In this document: positions 47,608 to 57,096 of the stretch, in pieces
How the letters are laid out: each line of letters opens with the position of its first letter
How positions within the stretch are numbered: the first letter of the stretch is position 1
Origin: Hyphomonadaceae bacterium BL14
Lineage (GTDB): Bacteria > Pseudomonadota > Alphaproteobacteria > Caulobacterales > Maricaulaceae
NCBI GenBank assembly: GCA_027627705.1
Contig: CP091242.1
Span: forward strand, 2,344,677 to 2,408,676
Length of the DNA: 64,000 nucleotides
Direction: 5' to 3'
Notes under the pieces: model-generated
Told to the model about the DNA's origin: nothing
The model's database searches: none
The model's input: only the letters and a program-made list of their open reading frames with translations
Translations under genes and position numbers: made by a program

Positions 47608-48312
47608 ATGGCCACGATCACGCTGGTGGATGATGACGAGAACATCCTCACCTCGGTCTCCATTTTTCTGGAGAATGAGGGGTACAAGGTGCGCACCTAT
47701 ACAGACGGGGCCACGGCCCTGCCCGAACTGACCGCCCAGCCGCCCGATCTGGCAATTTTCGACATCAAGATGCCGCGTATGGACGGGCTTGAGCTGCTGC
47801 GCCGTGTGCGTCAGTCCTCCAATCTGCCCGTTATTTTTCTTACGTCCAAGGACGGCGAATTTGACGAGGCGCTGGGGCTGGATCTCGGCGCAGACGACTA
47901 TATCGCCAAGCCCTTCTCCCATCAGCTGCTGGCGCGCCGGGTCAAGGCTGTGCTGCGCCGGGCGCAATTTGATCCTGAACTGGGCGGCACGCCGGGCGAT
48001 AGCGATCACAAGGCGATCCATCGCGGCAAGCTGACCATGGACCCCAACCGCCATGCCTGCGCCTGGGAAGGACGCCAGGTCCGCCTGACCGTGACAGAAT
48101 TCCTGATCCTGCAGGCCCTGGCCCACCGGCCTGGCTTCGTGAAGAGCCGCGACAATCTCATGGACGCGGCCTATGACGATCAGGTCTATGTCGATGACCG
48201 CACCATCGACAGCCACATCAAGCGTATTCGCAAGAAATTCCGCGAGGTGGATTCGACCTTTGACGGGATCGAGACCCTTTATGGCGTCGGCTATCGTTAC
48301 AAGGAGGCTTAG
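47608..48312 (+). CDS. chvI: Response regulator ChvI (OmpR/PhoB family)
   Basis: The 234-residue protein has a receiver domain (LVDDDEN acidic pocket, phospho-Asp in [39 protein letters not shown]) and an OmpR-type winged helix ([54 protein letters not shown]). These match alphaproteobacterial ChvI closely. With ChvG it controls envelope, acid-stress and symbiosis/virulence functions. The downstream kinase starts four bases after its stop. Confidence 0.93.
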
Positions 48313-48316
48313 GCGC

Positions 48317-49924
48317 ATGCGCGCAGGCGCGCGCTGGCTACTGCAGCGGGCCCCGCGCCTGCGGATGCCCCGGCTGTGGATGCTGATTGCAGCGATCAAC
48401 GCGGCCGTGCTGTTCGTGATGCTGCTGGGCCTCGTTGCCATCACCGAAGCCCGGCGCGGCGTCGTGGCGGCCAAGCTCGATTCCCTGACTGCCCAGGCCG
48501 AAATCATCGCCAGCGTCATCACCGAGACGGCGGTCTATGGCGATCCGCCCGGGCCGCGCATGGACAATGACTCCGCGCGTGAAGTGCTGCGGCGCCTGTC
48601 CTCGCTCTACGTGCCCGATCAGTCGCGCGCCATCCTGCATGCACCCGGACCGGCGCGTATCGCTGACAGTGACCTGATTGCGGGTCAGGTCGAGATCACG
48701 CCGCTCCCGCCGCCGGGCCAGGCCCTGGCCCCGCCGTCCCGACCGCTGGGCAACTGGTTCGGCGCAATGCTCGAGCCTTTTTCCATACTTTGGACGACGC
48801 CTGAATCGCGCGCCTATCTGGAGCTGACGCTCAATGAAGAGGTGGCGCTGGCTTTTGAGACGGGCGAGCCTCAGCGCGGGGTGCGGCGCGGGGCCGACGG
48901 GGTGCGCGTGGTCTCGGTGACCCTGCCGATCCAGCTTATTCAGGCCGTGGTCGGTACAGTAACCTATGAATCCTACGATCTGGACAATCTGATCGCCGAG
49001 GAGCGGGTCTTCCTGCTGGTCTTCGTGCTGTTCGCTGCCGGGATCATCGCGGTGGGCACGATTGTGTTGACCGTCTCGATTGCCGGGCCGCTGGCCAGAT
49101 TGTCCGAGGCGGCCAGGCGGGTGCGTCTGGCGGGCGGATCACGCGTGCCGCTGCCTGATTTTGGCGGGCGAAGCGACGAGATTGGGGCCTTGTCGACGGC
49201 TTTCAGCCAGATGACCAACGCGCTCTACGACCGGCTGGATGCTATTGAAAGCTTCGCCGCCGACGTCGCCCACGAAATCAAGAATCCGCTCACCTCGATT
49301 CGCTCTGCGGCCGAAACCCTGCCGCTGGCGCGGGACGACGCCCAGCGCGCGCGGCTGATCGCGGTGATCCAGCATGATGTGCGCCGGCTGGACCGGCTGA
49401 TCACAGACATCTCCAACGCCTCCAGGCTGGATGCGGAGCTGGCGCGCGAGGATCTGGCGCTGGTTGATGTCCGCCGCCTGCTCGGCGATATCGCCAGCCT
49501 GCACCGCCAGGATGCGCAAGACGCACCGGCGCGCGTGGTGGTGGATGCAGGGTCAGGCGCTCTGCTGATGCGCGGCCATGAAGGACCGCTGAGCCGTGTA
49601 TTCATCAATCTGGTGGACAACGCCCTCACATTCTCCCCGCCCGGGGGCGTGGTTCGGGTGACGGCGCGTCGCTTGGGCACCGCCGACGGACGGCTCATCG
49701 TGACGGTTGAAGATGACGGCCCGGGCATTCCGCCTGAAAGCCTGGAAGCGATTTTCGATCGTTTCCACACGCGCCGGCCGGAAGGAACGGCCTTCGGTTC
49801 CCACTCCGGTCTGGGCCTCGCCATCGCCCGGCAGATCGTCAGCGCGCATGGCGGGGTGATACGCGCCGGAAACCGGGCTGAGGGCGGCGCAGTGTTCACC
49901 GTTGACCTGCCGGCCGCCCGCTGA
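48317..49924 (+). CDS. chvG: Sensor histidine kinase ChvG
   Basis: The 535-residue kinase has TM1 (~20-45), a periplasmic sensor (~46-225), TM2 (~228-255), a HAMP linker (GPLARLSEAARRVR), the H-box FAADVAHEIKNPLTSIRSAAETL with the phospho-accepting His, and the ATPase boxes INLVDNALTFSPPGG, VEDDGPGIPPE, IFDRFHTRRPEG and SGLGLAIARQI. AAGGAGG sits nine bases before ATG 48317, and the longer open frame overlaps chvI. In relatives the periplasmic protein ExoR controls ChvG. ExoR is not in this window. Confidence 0.93.
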   Translation: MRAGARWLLQRAPRLRMPRLWMLIAAINAAVLFVMLLGLVAITEARRGVVAAKLDSLTAQAEIIASVITETAVYGDPPGPRMDNDSAREVLRRLSSLYVPDQSRAILHAPGPARIADSDLIAGQVEITPLPPPGQALAPPSRPLGNWFGAMLEPFSILWTTPESRAYLELTLNEEVALAFETGEPQRGVRRGADGVRVVSVTLPIQLIQAVVGTVTYESYDLDNLIAEERVFLLVFVLFAAGIIAVGTIVLTVSIAGPLARLSEAARRVRLAGGSRVPLPDFGGRSDEIGALSTAFSQMTNALYDRLDAIESFAADVAHEIKNPLTSIRSAAETLPLARDDAQRARLIAVIQHDVRRLDRLITDISNASRLDAELAREDLALVDVRRLLGDIASLHRQDAQDAPARVVVDAGSGALLMRGHEGPLSRVFINLVDNALTFSPPGGVVRVTARRLGTADGRLIVTVEDDGPGIPPESLEAIFDRFHTRRPEGTAFGSHSGLGLAIARQIVSAHGGVIRAGNRAEGGAVFTVDLPAAR

Positions 49925-49936
49925 CGCGGCGCCGGG

Positions 49937-49957
49937 GCCACACCGTGTGGCTCTTCT
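49937..49957 (+). terminator. Possible terminator after chvG
   Basis: GCCACAC-c-GTGTGGC followed by TCTTCT, 13 bases after the chvG stop. The one-base gap means two pairs must open to form a loop, and the T-run is weak. The 121 bases between chvG and the EIIA gene contain no hprK. Confidence 0.35.
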
Positions 49958-50045
49958 GCCCGCGAGGCCTTTTCGCGAGTGCGAAACCTAGCTTACATAT
50001 GACGGATCCATATCCGCCTGAGGAACAGGAATTGTACGCGTCGCC

Positions 50046-50450
50046 ATGATCGGCATCGTCGTCGTCTCACATGGCCGTCTGGCTGACGAGCTGATCCTGG
50101 CCGCCGAGCACGTGGTGGGGCCGCTTCAGGCGTGCAGCGCTGTCTCGATCGGGCCGGACGATGATATGGAGCTGCGCCGCAATGACATCCGGGCGGCCAT
50201 CGAGGCGTCTGACGGCGGCGAGGGCGTCATCGTGATTACGGACATGTTCGGCGGCACGCCCTCGAACCTGTCGATCTCGTTGCTGGAGCGCGGCCGGGTC
50301 GAGGTCATCGCCGGTGCCAATCTGCCCATGATGATCAAGCTGGCCGAAGCGCGCTCCCGCTTGCCGCTCAGCGCTCTGGCCGACAGCGTCAGTGCGGCGG
50401 GCAAGCGCTATATCGCCGTGGCCTCGCAGCTTCTCGACGGCCCGGCATGA
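50046..50450 (+). CDS. PTS EIIA component, mannose family (regulatory PTS)
   Basis: The 134-residue protein has the phosphorylatable His in IVVVSHGRLADELI (His9), DMFGGTPSNLSISLL and VIAGANLPMMIKL, the EIIA-Man/ManX fold. In alphaproteobacteria this protein is part of a PTS without sugar permeases that signals carbon/nitrogen state and is controlled through HPr and HPr kinase. It overlaps the HPr gene by four bases. Confidence 0.93.
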   Translation: MIGIVVVSHGRLADELILAAEHVVGPLQACSAVSIGPDDDMELRRNDIRAAIEASDGGEGVIVITDMFGGTPSNLSISLLERGRVEVIAGANLPMMIKLAEARSRLPLSALADSVSAAGKRYIAVASQLLDGPA

Positions 50451-50719
50451 CCACGCAGCGTACGGTGACCATCTGCAACCCGCGCGGGCTGCATGCGCGG
50501 GCTTCGGCGAAATTCGTCGCCCAGGCGGCACCGTTTGATGCCCGGATCACCGTGGTGCGCGAGGGCGAGGAGGTGGCCGCCGATTCGATCATGGAGCTCT
50601 TGATGCTCGCCGCCGGACCCGGCTGTGAGATTACCATCCGGGCTGAGGGCTCAGAAGCGGAGGCGGCAGTGATTGCGCTGGCAGACCTGGTTGAATCAGG
50701 GTTTGGCGAGCTCGGCTGA
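50447..50719 (+). CDS. ptsH: Phosphocarrier protein HPr
   Basis: The 90-residue protein carries ICNPRGLHARASAKF (His16, phosphorylated by EI) and the Ser46-type regulatory site in ADSIMELLMLAAGPG. It passes phosphate to the EIIA protein encoded just upstream. The regulatory serine is kept even though hprK, the kinase that modifies it, is absent from its usual position before the EIIA gene. The 3' end overlaps the convergent HAD phosphatase gene by 24 bp. Confidence 0.94.
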   Translation: MTTQRTVTICNPRGLHARASAKFVAQAAPFDARITVVREGEEVAADSIMELLMLAAGPGCEITIRAEGSEAEAAVIALADLVESGFGELG

Positions 50720-51247
50720 GCTGCGTTCTTCCAGTATCGCTGCCACCAGGGCGTCGAGCGGCTGGCCACCGTCATGCAGATATCCCGGCACGCCGGCACG
50801 CCGGGCCGCTTCCAGATCACTCGCCCTGTCGCCCACCATGAAACTCGTCTGCGCGGGCGCGCCAGCGTCGGCCAGCGCGCGCAGTACCATGCCGGGGTTG
50901 GGCTTGCGGTCGGGGTGGCTGGCGGCGCGATAGCGCGCCACCACCGCCTCGGCATGGTAGGGGCAGTAATACCAGGCGTCCACGCGCGCGCCCCGGGTGT
51001 CCAGTGTCTGCGCCATGGCACGGTGGAACGCCTGCACATCGGCTTCACTGCACAGCCCGCGCGCCACGGCAGACTGGTTTGTGACCACGGCGATCTGAAA
51101 TCCGGCTGCCCGCGCGAGAATCAGCGCGGCGGCGGCGCCGGGCATCCAGGTGATCTGATCCGGGTCGGTCTGGTGTGGCTTGTCCACAATCAGCACGCCG
51201 TCGCGGTCGAACAAGGCCAGAGGGGGTCCGGAGGCGGGAGCCAACAT
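50696..51247 (-). CDS. HAD-IIIA phosphatase, GmhB/histidinol-phosphatase-like
   Basis: The 183-residue protein has the HAD motif I LALFDRDGVLI (Asp nucleophile and acid/base Asp), motif II VVTNQSAVARG, a zinc-loop relic YYCPYHAEAV, KPNPGM and motif IV FMVGDRASDLEAARRAGV. This matches D-glycero-D-manno-heptose-1,7-bisphosphate 7-phosphatase (GmhB), used for LPS core heptose. The Cys/His zinc loop is incomplete, so substrate choice is less sure. ATG 51247 is chosen. The TTG at 51268 has no ribosome site. It is divergent from the RNA-modification operon. Confidence 0.8.
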   Translation of the reverse strand: MLAPASGPPLALFDRDGVLIVDKPHQTDPDQITWMPGAAAALILARAAGFQIAVVTNQSAVARGLCSEADVQAFHRAMAQTLDTRGARVDAWYYCPYHAEAVVARYRAASHPDRKPNPGMVLRALADAGAPAQTSFMVGDRASDLEAARRAGVPGYLHDGGQPLDALVAAILEERSSAELAKP

Positions 51248-51284
51248 CAGGGGTATCGCGCTGTGCAATCAAAGATCGATTACT

Positions 51285-51290
51285 TATAAT
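51285..51290 (+). promoter_or_regulatory. Consensus -10 box upstream of the RNA-modification operon
   Basis: A perfect TATAAT lies 135 bases before ATG 51426 in otherwise GC-rich DNA. The -35 region (around 51262, TGTGCA) is poor, so activation or a weak promoter is possible. The leader of about 130 bases contains ACCGGA-a-TCCGGT (51383-51395), a small palindrome. Confidence 0.5.
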
Positions 51291-51425
51291 GCCCCCTGCT
51301 CCGGTTGTCGCGCCGTCCTGATCCCGCTGTGCGCTCTGTGGCGGCGGGCTGGACAAGACGGTCGCGTACGGCGAGAGGTGACACCGGAATCCGGTCCGTA
51401 TAGCGGAGCTTTGAGAGGCGAGGCG

Positions 51426-52427
51426 ATGGCGCGCGGCGCAAAACGCAAAGGCACCAGCAGCGCCAAGCCGGGCAATCGCGGCGGTGGCGGCGCCGGTGCG
51501 CGCCGGCAGCAATTCCTCACCCGCGCTGCGCGTGTGTTCGATGTGCCCGAAGGCGTCGCCGAGGCGATGATGAGCCAGGGCCGGCGCCAGAGCCTGCGCT
51601 TCAATCCGCTGGCGGGCGTATCGCGACCTGACTTTGACGCGCAATTGGCACCCTGGGGCGAGGCCCTGATTCCGATCGACTGGTGCGACGGTGCCTGGCA
51701 TCTCGATCTGGAGCCGGGCCAGGCTTTGCCCGATCCGCTCTTCTCCAGTGGTCAGGCCTTCATCCAGAACGCCTCAAGCTTCGTGCCGGCCCTGGCGCTG
51801 GACCCGCAGCCGGGCGAGCGCATTCTCGATCTGTGCGCGGCCCCGGGCGGCAAGACTTCCCACATTGCCGCGCTTACCGGCAACAGGGCTGAAATCTGGG
51901 CCAATGACGCCCTGCCCGCGCGCTTGCCCAAGCTCAATGAAGTGCTCGGTCTTCTCCATGTGCGCACCGCGTCCGTGACCGCCCACCCCGGCCAGTTCAT
52001 TGACCGGTTCCTGGAGGGACCGTTTGACCGCATTCTCATCGATGCCCAGTGCACGGGCGAGGGGATGATTGACCTGCGCCGCGCGGCGACCTTGCGCTAC
52101 TGGTCCATGGAGCGTGTCGTCGAGTACAGCCGCCTGCAGCGCAAGATGCTGATGGCCGCCTCCAGACTGCTCAAGCCGGGTGGGGTGCTGGTGTATTCCA
52201 CCTGCACGCTGGCACCGGAAGAAAACGAAGCATCGGTGAACCACCTTCTCACCCACGCCCCGGATATGAGCCTGGAGCCTATTGAAATCGCAGCCCTCGG
52301 CCTGATCCCCGCCCGCACCCGCTGGGAGGGCGAGAGCTTTGATCCCAGCCTGACCATGGCGTGCCGCGTCTCGCCCAGCCGGTTCATGGAAGCGTTCTTT
52401 GTCGCGCGCCTGCGAAAGGACGCCTGA
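51426..52427 (+). CDS. RsmF/NSUN-type rRNA cytosine-C5 methyltransferase
   Basis: The 333-residue protein has a basic N terminus (1-30) and a complete Nol1/Nop2/Sun-type methylase core: FSSGQAFIQNASSFV, SAM motif CAAPGGKT (137-144), motif IV DAQCTGEG with Cys209, and motif VI YSTCTLAPEENE with catalytic Cys260. The normal Pro of motif IV (D-x-P-C-S-G) is Gln here. It lacks the NusB-like domain of RsmB and is nearer RsmF, which makes m5C1407 in E. coli 16S rRNA, but the C-terminal PUA-like part is missing. Its stop overlaps the next start (TGATG). First gene of the operon. Confidence 0.85.
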   Translation: MARGAKRKGTSSAKPGNRGGGGAGARRQQFLTRAARVFDVPEGVAEAMMSQGRRQSLRFNPLAGVSRPDFDAQLAPWGEALIPIDWCDGAWHLDLEPGQALPDPLFSSGQAFIQNASSFVPALALDPQPGERILDLCAAPGGKTSHIAALTGNRAEIWANDALPARLPKLNEVLGLLHVRTASVTAHPGQFIDRFLEGPFDRILIDAQCTGEGMIDLRRAATLRYWSMERVVEYSRLQRKMLMAASRLLKPGGVLVYSTCTLAPEENEASVNHLLTHAPDMSLEPIEIAALGLIPARTRWEGESFDPSLTMACRVSPSRFMEAFFVARLRKDA

Positions 52428-53512
52428 TGGAGTTGCGCCCCACCTTGCCCCTCGGTGTTGTGGACAGCCCGCTCTTCGTGCCCGATGCCACCTATGGGGC
52501 GATCAAGGGGCTGGGTGCGGACGAGCTGCCGGCGGCGGGCGTGCGCGTCCTGATGGCCAACGCATTCCATTTGATGCGCTCACCGGGGGTGACGCGGATC
52601 AAGGCGCTGGGCGGGCTGAAAAAAATGATGGGCTGGTCCGGCGTGCTGATGACCGATTCCGGCGGCTTTCAGGCCCTGTCTCTGATCCGGGAGAATGCCG
52701 GGCGCGGGCGAATCACGGCGCGTGGGCTGGACTTTGCTTTCGAGGACGGCGCGAAAGTGCAGCTCACCCCGGAAAAAGCCATCACCACCCAGCTGCGTCT
52801 GGGCGGGGACATATTATTCTGTCTGGATGACTGCACCCGGCCCGAGGACCCCGAGGCCGAGCAGGTCCTGTCTGTCGAGCGCACCATCGCCTGGGCGCGC
52901 GCCTGCAAGGATGCCTTCGCCGCCCAGCTGGGCAAGCGCGAGCGCGATCCGGACCGGCCCCGCCTGTGGGGCGTGGTGCAGGGCGGGCAATCGCCGGACT
53001 TGCGCCGACAGTGCGCTGAAGCCCTGCTGGAAATCGGGTTTGACGGGTACGGCTTCGGCGGCTGGCCGCTGGATTCCGATGGCAAGCTGCTCACCGACAC
53101 GCTGGCGCTGGTGCGTGATCTGATCCCGGCGCAGTTTCCGCTGCACGCGCTGGGCGTCGGCCACCCGGTCTCGGTCGCGGCGTGCGGGCGCATGGGCTAT
53201 ACGCTGTGCGACAGTGCCCTGCCGACACGGGACGCCCGGCGCGGGCGCCTCTACTGCTTCCGTGGCGATGTTCCCGCGATTGAGGGCGATGACTGGTTCA
53301 AGACCCTGTACCTCGCCGACGAGGTGCATGCGCGCAATGACGCGCCGATCTCGGAACAGTGCGAATGCCTGACCTGCCGCACCTATAGCCGGGGCTATCT
53401 GCACCATTTGTTCAAGCGCGACGAACCGCTCTACTGGCGCCTGGCCACCATTCATAACCTCTGGTTCATGCGCCAGGTGACGGATCTGGTCGCGGCGGAG
53501 CGTGCGGCGTGA
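52427..53512 (+). CDS. Divergent tRNA-guanine transglycosylase (Tgt) paralogue
   Basis: The 361-residue TIM-barrel protein keeps the Tgt catalytic set: MTDSGGFQ (75-82, Asp77), LDDC (133-136), VVQGGQSPDLR, nucleophile Asp262 in CDSALPTRDARRG, and the zinc site C312, C314, C317 with H343. It departs from housekeeping Tgt in several blocks. NAFHLMRSPG replaces NTYHLxLRPG, and GGWPLDSDGK replaces the invariant G-G-L-x-V-G-E. Standard Tgt swaps guanine 34 of tRNA for queuine precursors. Altered blocks and its place between two rRNA-methylase-type genes suggest another RNA target. ATG at 52427 and GTGA at the end couple it to both neighbours. Confidence 0.85.
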   Translation: MELRPTLPLGVVDSPLFVPDATYGAIKGLGADELPAAGVRVLMANAFHLMRSPGVTRIKALGGLKKMMGWSGVLMTDSGGFQALSLIRENAGRGRITARGLDFAFEDGAKVQLTPEKAITTQLRLGGDILFCLDDCTRPEDPEAEQVLSVERTIAWARACKDAFAAQLGKRERDPDRPRLWGVVQGGQSPDLRRQCAEALLEIGFDGYGFGGWPLDSDGKLLTDTLALVRDLIPAQFPLHALGVGHPVSVAACGRMGYTLCDSALPTRDARRGRLYCFRGDVPAIEGDDWFKTLYLADEVHARNDAPISEQCECLTCRTYSRGYLHHLFKRDEPLYWRLATIHNLWFMRQVTDLVAAERAA

Positions 53513-54327
53513 GCGCGCCGGAGCCGGGCGCATCCAAACCAGGCGCGCTGGACGAGGTGGTGGCGCAGGTGCGCGCGGCGTCGAAATCGCGCGACATCCT
53601 GCCTGCGCTGATCGAGCGGCTGGCCGCGCGCGAGCTGTCCGCCGGTATCGCTCCGCGCGAGGCGGTCAAGCGGGTCAAGCGCCAGCTCCACCAGTCGGGT
53701 GGGGCGTATTTTGCCGGCAAGCCGGCCTATGCCCGCTGGTTGAAGGCGCTGGAGGCGGCGGACTCGGACGCGCGCCAGGCCGAGCTCAAGCGCCAGTTCA
53801 CCATTCACCGCTCCATGGCAGAGCGCGCCGGATCGCTGGAATCCTATTACGCAGGGCTGTTTGCCGGGATTGATGCGCCGTCCTGCGTCCTTGACGTCGC
53901 CTGCGGGCTGAACCCGCTGGGGCGGCCGTGGATGCCGGTGCAGCCGGAGCGATACCGCGCCTGTGACATCTATCTCGACATGCTGGATTTCGTGGCGCGC
54001 GCCTCGGTGCTTTCAGGCTATGGGGTCGAGACCTTCGCTCACGATCTTGCTGCCGGTGCGCCGGACGAGGATGGCGCGGATGTGGTTCTGGCGCTGAAAA
54101 CCCTGCCCTGCCTAGACCAGATCGAGCCGGGTGCGGGCGCGCGGCTCGTCGCCGGGCTGACGGCGCGCCACATCATCGTGACCTATCCCCTGCTGAGCCT
54201 GGGCGGGCGTGAGAAGGGCATGGACGCCCATTACCGGCGCAGTTTTGAGGCTGTCGCACACGCGAGCGGGCGTCAGGTGTCGGAATTGTCGCTGCCGGGC
54301 GAGCTGGGCTTCCGCCTGTCGCGCTGA
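53509..54327 (+). CDS. 16S rRNA (guanine1405-N7)-methyltransferase family (Rmt/FmrO type)
   Basis: The 272-residue protein matches the aminoglycoside-resistance methylase family along its length. It has an N-terminal helical rRNA-binding domain with AVKRVKRQLHQSGGAYF (~52-68), HRSMAER (100-106), the SAM motif VLDVACGLNPLGRPWM (127-142), ACDIYLDMLDF, LALKTLPCLDQ (193-204) and VTYPLLSLGGREKGMDAHYRRSFE (224-247), ending in ELGFRL. Known members methylate N7 of G1405 in helix 44 and block gentamicin/kanamycin-type drugs. Base composition matches the chromosome, so it is resident, not newly acquired. GTG start overlaps the Tgt-like stop. The 3' end overlaps rsmI by 55 bp, tail to tail. Confidence 0.85.
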   Translation: MSAPEPGASKPGALDEVVAQVRAASKSRDILPALIERLAARELSAGIAPREAVKRVKRQLHQSGGAYFAGKPAYARWLKALEAADSDARQAELKRQFTIHRSMAERAGSLESYYAGLFAGIDAPSCVLDVACGLNPLGRPWMPVQPERYRACDIYLDMLDFVARASVLSGYGVETFAHDLAAGAPDEDGADVVLALKTLPCLDQIEPGAGARLVAGLTARHIIVTYPLLSLGGREKGMDAHYRRSFEAVAHASGRQVSELSLPGELGFRLSR

Positions 54328-55055
54328 CGCTTTTTCGTTCCGGCGTCGGGGTCAGGCGGCGGCACGCTGGCGCCGTCGAACACCACCATCACCTCGCCGC
54401 GTGGCGGCTCGGGGAAGCGGGTGATCAGGGCGCTGACCGGTCCGCGGGCCGTCTCCTCGAACATTTTCGTGATTTCCAAGCATACCGCGGCCTCGATATC
54501 GCCGAACACGGCCAGCGCATCCTCCAGCAGGCCTGGCAGACGGTGGGGGGCCTCCATCATCACTAGCGTCGCCTGATGGCGCCGAGCGCGGTCCAGCCAG
54601 TTGCGCCGCTGGCCGCTCTTGCGCGGGGGAAAGCCCAGAAACACGAACTCGTGGGGGGGCAGATTGGACAGAACCAGCGCGCTGAGCACCGAGGACGCGC
54701 CCGGGATCACCCGTACGGGCAGCGCGCGCTCGTACACGGCGGCCACCACACGAAAGCCCGGATCATTGATCCCTGGCATGCCGGCATCGCTGCACAGCGC
54801 CACGGTCTGTCCGCGCGCGATCAGATCGGCAATGCCGCCAGCGCTGTGGCGCTCATTATGGTCGTGGCAGGCGATCAGGCGCTGGGGCGAAATGCCGTAG
54901 TGATCCAGAAGCTTGCGCGTATGGCGCGTGTCCTCGGCAGCCACCACGTCCGCCTCCTTGAGGATGCGCACGGCGCGGTAGGTCATATCTTCCAGGTTGC
55001 CGATGGGCGTGGCCACCAGATAGAGCGTTCCGGGCTCCTCGCGTCCATCCATCAC
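54273..55055 (-). CDS. rsmI: 16S rRNA (cytidine1402-2'-O)-methyltransferase
   Basis: The 260-residue protein is a tetrapyrrole-methylase-fold SAM enzyme with TLYLVATPIGNLEDMTYRAVRIL, AAEDTRHTRKLLDHY, LCSDAGMPGINDPGF and VRVIPGASSVLSALVLS, followed by FVFLGFPPRKSGQRRNWL and APHRLPGLLED, all RsmI. It 2'-O-methylates C1402 in the decoding centre. The C-terminal tail is basic and short. Usually rsmI adjoins yraN and an lpoA-like gene. Here it converges on the Rmt-type gene with 55 bp overlap. GTG 55055 has AGGAG seven bases upstream, with ATG 55052 as alternative. Confidence 0.93.
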   Translation of the reverse strand: MMDGREEPGTLYLVATPIGNLEDMTYRAVRILKEADVVAAEDTRHTRKLLDHYGISPQRLIACHDHNERHSAGGIADLIARGQTVALCSDAGMPGINDPGFRVVAAVYERALPVRVIPGASSVLSALVLSNLPPHEFVFLGFPPRKSGQRRNWLDRARRHQATLVMMEAPHRLPGLLEDALAVFGDIEAAVCLEITKMFEETARGPVSALITRFPEPPRGEVMVVFDGASVPPPDPDAGTKKRQRDRRKPSSPGSDNSDT

Positions 55056-55182
55056 AAGCGTGCTCCTGGCTCGCCGCCGGTCAGGGGCAGGCTGCTAACA
55101 GCTTATCAGAGAAAACGGAAGCCGGGTCGGGCGGAACCGCCGCGCGTGCAGCGGATGCAGCGGCTGTGCCCATGGCGGCCAG

Positions 55183-55824
55183 TTGGGTGCGGCCGCCGGA
55201 TCGGGCCGGCCCTTTGTCAATTTCACGCCCAGCCAGGCCGCCGACATTGCCCCGATCGAGGCGCTGGCGCGCGCCCACGGCGCGCCGCTGGCGGGCAAGG
55301 ATGGCAAGACTGGCCAGACGCTGGTGAAGACGGCGCTGGCACCGGCCCTGCGCGACCGGGCTTTGCGTGTGGAGGGGTGGTACTCCACAAATCTGCTGGG
55401 CAATCTGGACGGCTATGTGCTCGACGATCCGGACTCGCGTGCGTCCAAGATCGGTGCCAAGCGGTCGGTTCTGGACCAGATTCTGGGCTATACGGTGGAC
55501 AACCACATCATCAATATCTGCTACCATCCGCCCAAGGGCGACATGAAGGAAGCCTGGGACAGCATCGACCTGGCCGGATTTCTCGGTCAGCCCATGCAGA
55601 TGAAGATCAACTTCCTGTGCGCGGACTCCATCCTGGCGGCGCCCCTGGTGATCGAGCTGGCGCGCCTGTGCGATATCGCCCAGCAGCGCGGCCTGTCCGG
55701 CTGCATCCGCGAGTTCGCCGTGTTCTTCAAATCGCCCCAGGGCTTCAACGGCACCGTGCCTGAGCATGGGTTTCACGCCCAGCAATCCATGCTGGACGCC
55801 TGGCTGGCCCGTCACGCGCAGTAG
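55183..55824 (+). pseudogene. Inositol-3-phosphate synthase, C-terminal half only
   Basis: The 213 codons match the catalytic C-terminal part of myo-inositol-1-phosphate synthase: GRPFVNFTPSQAADIAPIEALA, LAGKDGKTGQTLVKTAL, WYSTNLLGNLDGYVL, SKIGAKRSVLDQIL and INFLCADSILAAPLVIELARL. The N-terminal NAD-binding Rossmann portion (over 100 residues, including GxGGNN-type loop) is absent. Upstream DNA up to the rsmI start carries no in-frame continuation and only a TTG as start. It is therefore a 5'-truncated remnant, probably cut when rsmI was placed here. It cannot be an active synthase. Confidence 0.78.
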
Positions 55825-55837
55825 GCCGCACGGGCGT

Positions 55838-56353
55838 CTAGCCGTCGCGCTTGGCCTGGGCTTTCTTGATCTGCTGAGACACCCGCCCGGCCTCGCGCGG
55901 ATCGGCGATCTGCTCGCGCTTGTCGCTGGTATTCTTCTGCATGCCCTTGCCGGCGGTGCGCGATCCCGGACGCGCGGTCTTCGGGGCGGCGCGCTTCATG
56001 GCCAGCGCCTTCTTCATGCCCGACCGGGTCTCCTCGCGTCCGGCAGACGCGCTGCGCCGGGCATGTTCGGCGTTCAGGCGCTTGAGCGCGCTGGCCAGCG
56101 CCGCGGCTTTTTCCCTGGACCCCAGATTATCGGCTGCCGGCTTGGCGCCCTGGGCCTGGGCCTTGCCGCGCATCTCGCGGCGCTGGCGCTTGGAGATATC
56201 CAATGCGCGCTGGCGGCGTTCGCGCACCAGCTTGCGGGTGTCGGCCAGCGTCTTGTCGTCCAGCGAGGACAGGGCGGGGTGGTGCGAACGCTCGACCAGC
56301 TCCAGCTCATCCTTGGTGAACAGGCGGGCTTCGTCCTTGCGGCTGACGGCCAT
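55838..56353 (-). CDS. Small highly basic protein of unknown function
   Basis: The 171-residue protein is rich in Lys, Arg and Ala. It starts MAVSRKDEARLFTKDELELVERSHHPALSSL, and runs through helical basic stretches (KLVRERRQRALDISKRQRREMRGKA) to an almost unstructured Lys/Arg tail. Nucleic-acid binding is plausible. I recognise similar uncharacterised proteins in alphaproteobacteria but no function. GGAG precedes ATG 56353. Confidence 0.65.
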   Translation of the reverse strand: MAVSRKDEARLFTKDELELVERSHHPALSSLDDKTLADTRKLVRERRQRALDISKRQRREMRGKAQAQGAKPAADNLGSREKAAALASALKRLNAEHARRSASAGREETRSGMKKALAMKRAAPKTARPGSRTAGKGMQKNTSDKREQIADPREAGRVSQQIKKAQAKRDG

Positions 56354-56485
56354 GGGCTTGTCTCCTTCAATCAGACGTCTTGTCCTATCATCCTTGTAAA
56401 TCGCGCCCATTGCAAAGGCGCGGCGTTGCTAAGGACTGGTCGGTGGAGCGGGCGTTCGAGGCGGTGGAGCAGGAGAGACGCCTGC

Positions 56486-57096
56486 TCAGCGTACGGACCC
56501 TGGCTCGCTGTACGCTGAAAGGTCACCCGTATAGTCCCGCCTGATCCATGCGGGAGGGCCGGGACGGACATCAACCAGCCGCCCCTGGTCAAAGGTGAGG
56601 ACAAGCTTGGGGCTCTGCGCCGCCACCGAGTTGTCATAGACGAGACCTTTGTCGGCCAGCCTCACCGCTGCCGGGACAAGCCGGGCCGTCCGGTTATGCC
56701 GCTCGCGGATTTTCGTTTCCGGAACAGAGTGTCCGCCCGTCGCGCTCCGGTAAGCAACTCGCGCCACGGAGAGGTCGGGGCTGTCGATCCCCACATGCAT
56801 CACCCAGACGGTGTAGCCCTGCGCTCGCGCCGCCTGCACGAGTTCAAGCTTTGAGGGATGCGAGAACACGGCCTCCGTGACGAAGTCACGCCCTGCGAGA
56901 GCATCGCGTTGCGCCTCTCGGTGCCGATCTCGGCGGCCTTGTATGCGGCCTACGGGCTGGGATCGCAGAGCTCGTCGCGTTGAATTATGTCGGCATTGAT
57001 GAAGGGAGCTTTGAAGGCGGGCGCCACACGGGTCAAATACAAGGCCGATTTGCCGGCGCCGTTCGGGCCGGCGAGCAGTATCAGGGTCGGATTCAT
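56486..57096 (-). pseudogene. Zeta-type toxin (UDP-GlcNAc kinase family), broken
   Basis: From ATG 57096 the frame reads NPTLILLAGPNGAGKSALYL (Walker A), PFINADIIQRDEL, then a TAG stop where family members continue (AAYKAAEIGTERRNAML). After LSQG a one-base loss shifts the frame, and the protein resumes RDFVTEAVFSHPSKLELVQAA, VWVMHVGIDSPDLSVARVA, RERHNRTARLV and LVYDNSVAAQSPKLVLTF. All zeta-toxin landmarks are present, but the gene has one nonsense codon and one frameshift. Zeta toxins phosphorylate UDP-sugars and poison cell-wall synthesis. It lies 89 bases after an intact antitoxin gene. Confidence 0.82.

Follow-up and report, generated by a model that had tools for sequence, protein, structure and literature searches.

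A recurrent tgt2-rmt gene cassette with a putative role in modifying the 16S rRNA decoding center

Organization of the cassette

We analyzed a 64,000-nucleotide stretch of the genome of Hyphomonadaceae bacterium BL14 (contig CP091242.1 of assembly GCA_027627705.1, forward-strand positions 2,344,677 to 2,408,676; hereafter the window, numbered from its first letter), in which a gene for a paralogue of tRNA-guanine transglycosylase (Tgt) lies among genes for three homologues of 16S rRNA methyltransferases. We introduce the name Tgt2 for this and related Tgt-like proteins. The cassette is a genuine module that recurs and is functionally coherent, and its Tgt-like part is a distinct subfamily; the observations are gene linkage, a separate clade, residue changes, a predicted fold, and a distinct RsmI lineage in carriers. 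The features of the cassette are as follows.

51426-52427, plus strand: RsmF-like 16S rRNA cytosine-C5 methyltransferase gene (PF01189), 333 amino acids, without a long C-terminal extension
52425-52429, plus strand: stop-start overlap of the rsmF-like gene and tgt2, TGATG (TGA at 52425-52427, ATG at 52427-52429)
52427-53512, plus strand: tgt2, paralogue of tRNA-guanine transglycosylase (PF01702)
53063-53074, plus strand: Tgt2 signature Trp-Pro-Leu-Asp, with Trp213 and Pro214 in Tgt2 numbering, aligned to Leu231-Ala232-Val233-Gly234 of Zymomonas mobilis
53509-53512, plus strand: start-stop overlap of tgt2 and rmt, GTGA (rmt GTG at 53509-53511, tgt2 stop at 53510-53512)
53509-54327, plus strand: Rmt/FmrO-family homologue of 16S rRNA G1405-N7 methyltransferases (PF07091)
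54273-54327: tail-to-tail overlap of rmt and rsmI, 55 bp (rmt end at 54327, end of minus-strand rsmI at 54273)
54273-55055, minus strand: rsmI, 16S rRNA C1402 2'-O-methyltransferase of the cassette-type lineage (TIGR00096)

The original prediction made from this DNA held that stop-to-start overlaps join the RsmF-like, Tgt-like, and Rmt-like genes and that the third converges with rsmI over 55 bp, and the sequence confirms both points. For the RsmF-like gene, the most likely start is ATG 51426 rather than 51285, because the N-terminus MAR-AKRKG is kept in two genomes of the same genus. Its product carries the RsmB/F methyltransferase domain (PF01189, 154 bits) and falls below the RsmF equivalog cutoffs of the NCBIfam profiles (154 versus 588 bits and 185 versus 690 bits), the best of which was Thermus RsmF (185 bits, cutoff 690). 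The Rmt-like protein matched PF07091 (FmrO) at 147 bits against a cutoff of 27, fell under the Rmt equivalog cutoff of NF000466 (178 versus 250 bits), and had Sgm (3lcu, 1.1e-40) as its nearest solved structure. The cassette RsmI scored 201 bits with TIGR00096, over the cutoff of 167.9. The window's genome contained one FmrO match and one RsmI match in total, these being the cassette rmt and the cassette rsmI, respectively.

Adjacency of tgt2 and rmt in distant bacteria

Searching the genome collection with an alignment of 25 Rmt proteins as bait gave 299 relatives, and we kept the 80 best-scoring as loci. A Tgt-like gene was counted as adjacent when its frame ended no more than 150 bp from the Rmt frame, upstream and on the same strand. 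By this measure, 67 of the 80 loci had tgt2 immediately upstream of rmt: 61 of 73 from Chloroflexota, 3 of 3 from Pseudomonadota (two from the window's group and one from Azospirillaceae), and the sole loci from Acidimicrobiia (Actinomycetota), Poribacteria, and Chthonomonadaceae (Armatimonadota). Environmental carriers that are in culture include Longilinea arvoryzae KOME-1 (L078) and Dictyobacter kobayashii Uno11 (L023). Among the 13 nonadjacent loci, tgt2 was found 1.8 kb upstream of rmt in L068, with two inserted genes between them, and no TGT was found in the other 12, where the upstream sequence was only 2 bp long in L082 and 150 bp in L055; the genome of L055 had canonical Tgt only. The insert in L068 (L068:8184-10002), which we take to resemble a mobile defense pair, encodes an ATPase-like protein and a second protein. 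A search of viral contigs returned no Rmt relative.

Adjacency of all three genes in related genomes had been expected from the window. This was borne out for tgt2 and rmt, and genes for RsmI, RsmF, RsmE, and, on a plasmid, RsmH recur beside them; the order rsmF-tgt2-rmt was seen only in the window's own group, and in other groups RsmF is found either beyond rsmI or at the opposite end of the tgt2-rmt pair.

We also counted TGT matches in 201 Chloroflexota genomes that were drawn evenly, irrespective of any resemblance to the window. At least two matches were present in 37 of 39 FmrO-positive genomes versus 19 of 162 FmrO-negative genomes, a per-genome count in which Tgt2 is not distinguished from split genes or second copies of other kinds (Fisher p 7e-24; genomes of one phylum are not independent). 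In addition, pairwise distances of Tgt2 and Rmt were correlated (r 0.85), with 0 of 2000 permutations giving a value as high.

Tgt2 as a separate subfamily with an altered base pocket

The Tgt2 of the window is predicted to adopt the TGT fold and scored 297 bits with PF01702, over the curated cutoff, while falling under the cutoffs for tRNA guanosine(34) transglycosylase (TIGR00430, 266.9 versus 306.75 bits) and DpdA (NF041059, 20.2 versus 200 bits). In a tree, Tgt2 proteins formed their own clade with an SH-aLRT value of 100. Canonical Tgt was also present in 21 of 22 Tgt2 genomes tested. That the Tgt-like gene is simply the ordinary tgt of its genome was ruled out by the canonical copy found elsewhere in that genome (509 bits versus 297 for Tgt2).

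Residues were numbered by aligning the window's canonical Tgt to Z. mobilis TGT. We tabulated 72 Tgt2 sequences (65 genome loci, the window, and six plasmid copies), leaving out the contig-end fragments L048, L049, and L080, which are counted as adjacent in the 67; for comparison, 29 canonical Tgt loci (L092-L120) gave 21 usable proteins, or 22 with the window's own. The catalytic residues were kept in Tgt2 (Asp280 in 72/72, Asp102 in 69/69 nongap sequences), as were the zinc ligands (Cys318 and Cys320 in 71/72, Cys323 in 71/71 nongap sequences, His349 in 72/72). Among guanine-binding residues, Gln203 and Gly230 were found in all 72 proteins and Asp156 wherever a residue was present. The signature at positions 231 to 234 was Trp (71/72), Pro (72/72), Leu (69/72), and Asp (67/72), and the same positions in the 22 canonical proteins held Leu (21), Ala or Ser (22), Val (21), and Gly (22). 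The pocket for ribose 34 was also remodeled, Val45 being replaced by Asp, Leu68 mostly by Val or Met, and Val282 mostly by Ala, and Tgt2 had several insertions and no counterpart of the last ~20 residues of canonical Tgt.

In canonical Tgt, the Leu231/Ala232 peptide is reported to flip, with its carbonyl facing preQ1 or its NH facing guanine and Glu235 as partner (PMC3660597). This preQ1/guanine switch was not found in Tgt2, which has Trp-Pro at 231 and 232 and no conserved Glu. Because proline lacks the NH, Tgt2 should be unable to adopt the guanine-type state of this switch. From these substitutions, we expect that the pocket should favor a base with a donor or a positive charge at position 7. 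Overall, Tgt2 looks like an active enzyme, as predicted from its sequence, with an altered choice of base and an altered fit to RNA.

As a separate observation, the canonical tgt of the window's genome (L001:1486-2604, minus strand) encodes serine at two of the three zinc-ligand cysteines. Serine occurs at both positions in 3 of the 22 aligned canonical Tgt proteins; Tgt2 keeps the zinc ligands.

Neighboring genes for decoding-site enzymes

Genes around the pair were named by family scans, in which RsmI and RsmH queries scored over their cutoffs, RsmF-like queries matched RsmF best and fell under the cutoff, and RsmE queries were assigned to their family; the neighbor clusters were only partly named in this way. 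Within 3 kb of Rmt, we found RsmI in 30 of 80 loci, RsmF-like genes in 33, and RsmE in 20. Of the 53 loci with full flanks, 22 had RsmI and 12 had RsmF within 1.5 kb of Tgt2, and within 1.5 kb of canonical Tgt, each of these families was found in 0 of 29 loci, the flanks of this control being set by the canonical-Tgt loci, which were no longer than that. There was no match for RsmH within 10 kb of Rmt in the 80 loci. These families belong to the set of decoding-site enzymes named in PMC12406665.

Gene order varied among groups. The order rsmI-tgt2-rmt in one direction was found in 22 of 67 loci (19 from Chloroflexota and one each from Poribacteria, Armatimonadota, and Azospirillaceae), and tgt2-rmt convergent with rsmI was found in the window and in the Acidimicrobiia locus L014. 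The Azospirillaceae locus L064 has the order rmt-rsmF-rsmI-tgt2-rmt-Vut_1. A homologue of Vut_1, which we take to be the COG1738 YhhQ family, lay within 6 kb in 21 of 80 loci (20 from Chloroflexota plus L064). QueA was present in 21 of 22 Tgt2 genomes (21 from the set of 22 tested for canonical Tgt, plus the window's genome). In Escherichia coli, transport of preQ0 is reported to require COG1738 YhhQ (PMC5372724).

Two further arrangements were seen. In 27 of 80 loci, all from Chloroflexota, a second FmrO-family gene follows rmt within 100 bp on the same strand (e.g., L024:10750-11607). In nine loci of the Anaerolineaceae type (L017, L024, L025, L030, L031, L037, L066, L075, and L085), a divergent RsmI paralogue lies directly upstream of tgt2, and seven of these also have an ordinary RsmI gene 4 to 6 kb downstream.

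RsmI lineages in the window's genus

Across the order, FmrO scored over its cutoff in 3 of 249 genomes, all from the window's genus and including the window's own. Two other genomes of this genus, G138 and G173, contain the same rsmF-rsmI pair without tgt2-rmt, the aligned ends of the two genes lying 41 and 62 bp apart versus 1.9 kb in the window. In G128, G218, G208, and G034, rsmI aligns in part and its flanks do not align. In a tree of RsmI proteins made without L133, L140, L141, and hits shorter than 200 residues, G128, G218, and G034 formed a separate group, and the window-type RsmI was sister to the RsmI of the Acidimicrobiia cassette (97/92). Each of nine genomes of the genus contained exactly one RsmI match.

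On the simplest reading, the cassette brought its own RsmI and the resident RsmI was lost, and G138 and G173 subsequently lost tgt2-rmt. We prefer later loss because L014 has the same tgt2-rmt-rsmI layout; alternatively, tgt2-rmt may have been gained between rsmF and rsmI.

Cassettes on clinical plasmids

The plasmid hits nearest Tgt2 (best 12, 43 to 46% identity) included four records that we examined (H1, H3, H10, and H11), and in all four rmt lay downstream of tgt, adjoining it in three and separated by one gene in H1. In 6411TF, tgt2 is directly upstream of rmtD1, in two copies; rmtG is directly downstream of tgt2 on pKP13f and, in two copies, on pEc09; and rmtB2 is downstream of tgt2 with a metallophosphoesterase gene between. 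The order on pKP13f, from Klebsiella pneumoniae Kp13, is rsmH (over its cutoff), tgt2, rmtG, and an N-terminal fragment of RsmI. This operon resembles the window in having a tgt2-rmt core with decoding-site methylases and a C1402 methylase alongside. It differs in its mobile plasmid location, in having only a fragment of RsmI, and in having RsmH in place of RsmF, rsmH being the first gene of the rmtG operon where the window has the RsmF-like gene.

According to the Kp13 genome report, the gene immediately before rmtG encodes a putative tRNA ribosyltransferase (PMC3904158), and a 2022 review, citing Passarelli-Araujo 2019, assigns rmtG to the same operon as rsmH, tgt, and "rsmL" (PMC9311965), the last of which is evidently rsmI. 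The portions of these two papers that we consulted propose no function for the tgt of the rmtG operon. The original prediction was thus too strong in stating that this combination of genes is found in no described system. The plasmid form of the operon was already known; the cross-phylum cassette, the RsmI replacement, and the Tgt2 subfamily with its pocket signature did not turn up in the open-licence literature that we searched.

A candidate decoding-center module and its alternatives

The reading that we favor, and to which we give an even chance, is that the cassette is a module for the decoding center in helix 44 of 16S rRNA, in which Tgt2 would be a putative exchanger of a helix-44 guanine; what we infer is that rRNA is the substrate, which guanine is exchanged for which base, and any effect on drug binding. 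Such a module would move between genomes. Judging from its family, its Rmt would methylate N7 of G1405, and RsmI (C1402), RsmF (C1407), and elsewhere RsmH (C1402) or RsmE (U1498) would be methylases able to work on ribosomes carrying 7-methylguanosine at this position (m7G1405). RsmF is reported to be blocked by Sgm and RmtC and RsmI by ArmA (PMC12406665), and because m7G1405 enzymes thus block RsmF or RsmI, the recurrence of RsmI- and RsmF-type methylases near Rmt fits a need for tolerant partners. Tgt2 would be a base-exchange enzyme, predicted to be competent, with a pocket that dispenses with the guanine/preQ1 peptide flip of canonical Tgt, and it may replace a decoding-center guanine by a 7-deazaguanine-type base. 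The earlier proposal that the locus is a set acting on one rRNA site stands to the extent that its neighbors are recurrently enzymes of 16S positions 1402, 1407, and 1498.

The most attractive sites for Tgt2 would be the 5'-GU-3' steps G1494-U1495 and G1405-U1406. Canonical Tgt is reported to act on a G followed by U, in GUN anticodons (PMC11703503); 2-deoxystreptamine is described as binding N7 of G1494 and recognizing both GU steps (PMC2754922), and plazomicin as contacting N7 and O6 of G1405 (PMC8195987). We favor these steps because canonical Tgt acts on G before U and 2-deoxystreptamine aminoglycosides read the steps through guanine N7. With a 7-deazaguanine at G1494, one N7 would be gone and the other would be blocked by Rmt, a hypothesis that fits. 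Tentatively, and with less confidence than in the module itself, we propose that Tgt2 swaps G1494, or G1405 before or after its N7 methylation, for a 7-deazaguanine-type base, within an Rmt-RsmI-RsmF module that moves between distant bacteria and is already on hospital plasmids. Tgt2 would then be, to our knowledge, the first such enzyme to act on ribosomal RNA.

Several observations weigh against this proposal. The 80 loci were the top scorers among 299 relatives, come mostly from one phylum, and are not independent, and those outside Chloroflexota are on contigs of metagenome-assembled genomes, whose labels may be wrong. RsmI and RsmF are near Rmt in fewer than half of the loci, and RsmE is near it in Chloroflexota only. 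Vut_1 is absent from the window's genome, being present in 13 and absent in 9 of the 22 Tgt2 genomes scanned for QueA. An orphan Tgt2 gene is present in genome G264 (L152:2911-4230, minus strand, 431 bits), with no Rmt within the fetched 7 kb and an Rmt elsewhere in the genome (L036). Tgt2 was missing from 9 of 31 Rmt-bearing genomes (eight with canonical Tgt only and one with no TGT), and no tgt was annotated within 4 kb in one record each of armA, rmtB1, rmtC, rmtF1, and rmtH, so Rmt can evidently act independently of Tgt2. Finally, the fold of Tgt2 and its residues Thr285, Arg286, Arg289, Tyr330, and His333 are those of the tRNA enzyme.

The main rival, which we consider rather unlikely, is that Tgt2 is a second tRNA transglycosylase with a new base or set of tRNAs; the cassette would then tune decoding through both tRNA and 16S rRNA, and the link to Rmt would run through aminoglycoside or translation stress. 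Against a tRNA role, canonical Tgt already exists in nearly all of the Tgt2 genomes tested, and the floor of the ribose-34 pocket (Val45, Leu68, and Val282) is altered. Moreover, the neighbor clusters were only partly named, and those with names encode 16S methylases and a homologue of a precursor transporter, joined in some loci by a gene of the histidine pathway.

A second alternative, of low probability, is compensation alone, in which Rmt travels with RsmF, RsmI, or RsmH variants that tolerate m7G1405 and Tgt2 is a passenger or minor partner. The reported blocking of RsmF by Sgm and RmtC and of RsmI by ArmA favors such compensation, as do the cassette-type RsmI being the sole RsmI of carriers in the window's group and the RsmI gene directly upstream of Rmt without Tgt2 in L033 and L062. 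However, the most constant partner of Rmt is Tgt2 rather than RsmI or RsmF, Tgt2 distances follow those of Rmt, and the RsmF/RsmI part of this explanation is also compatible with the helix-44 module.

The boldest alternative, and a very improbable one, is that Tgt2 excises the m7G1405 made by Rmt, either as an eraser or in a two-step modification. The tight pairing of Rmt with Tgt2 would suit this activity, as would the proline at 232, with which the backbone NH pointing at guanine in canonical Tgt would be lost, and 7-methylguanine is reported to be a competitive TGT inhibitor (PMC9299380). Yet inhibition by a free base is no proof of excision from RNA, and rmtD1, rmtG, and rmtB2 beside Tgt2 are annotated as resistance genes, the effect of which an efficient eraser would undo.

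Translation genes often cluster, and 73 of the 80 loci come from one phylum. Chance clustering of unrelated translation genes is nevertheless of negligible probability and was ruled out by the adjacency counts (67/80) and by the canonical-Tgt control (these methylases near 0/29), with gene orders that differ among groups and a cassette-type RsmI that accompanies the cassette in the window's genus.

Relation to known enzymes and implications

Compared with Tgt of the queuosine pathway (Z. mobilis, E. coli), Tgt2 has Trp-Pro-Leu-Asp-variable in place of Leu231-Ala232-Val233-Gly234-Glu235 and adjoins Rmt. It shares the TGT fold with the DNA-guanine transglycosylase DpdA, far below whose cutoff it scores. 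The substrate of DpdA is DNA rather than tRNA, and base exchange is known for tRNA and DNA. The window's Rmt shares PF07091 with the Arm/Rmt/Sgm G1405-N7 methyltransferases and differs in being chromosomal and below the Rmt equivalog cutoff. The other cassette genes match the profiles of housekeeping RsmF, RsmI, RsmH, and RsmE but adjoin tgt2-rmt; the RsmF-like genes are below the equivalog cutoffs, and the RsmI lineage of the window differs from that of three other members of its genus. Among the titles and beginnings of abstracts listed from the open-licence literature, none proposed an rRNA role for a Tgt or a tgt-rmt cassette shared across phyla, which is a weak absence.

Should 16S rRNA prove to be the substrate of Tgt2, base exchange would extend to rRNA, at the site where codon-anticodon pairing is checked. 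This would account for the tgt genes beside rmtD1, rmtG, and rmtB2 on clinical plasmids, and environmental Rmt genes would be part of a wider program of decoding-center modification and not of resistance alone. Even with tRNA as its substrate, Tgt2 would be a Tgt subfamily of its own, one whose base pocket has been rebuilt and which is kept beside Rmt in distant bacteria.

Sequences around the cassette

Base composition along the window showed no step at the cassette. Rfam scans, with preQ1 riboswitches among the families, gave one weak match under its gathering score in window positions 48000-57000 and, across the seven loci scanned, only a tRNA. The 16S rRNA of the window's genome, sought by family and by pattern, was not found and is perhaps masked. 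Just upstream of the cassette are EIIA-man and HPr phosphotransferase genes (50046-50719), and a HAD-IIIA phosphatase gene (50699-51268, minus strand) adjoins it. On the other side, a 213-amino-acid open frame at 55183-55824 has matches to inositol-1-phosphate synthase domains and is shorter than the matched 355-position NCBIfam profile.

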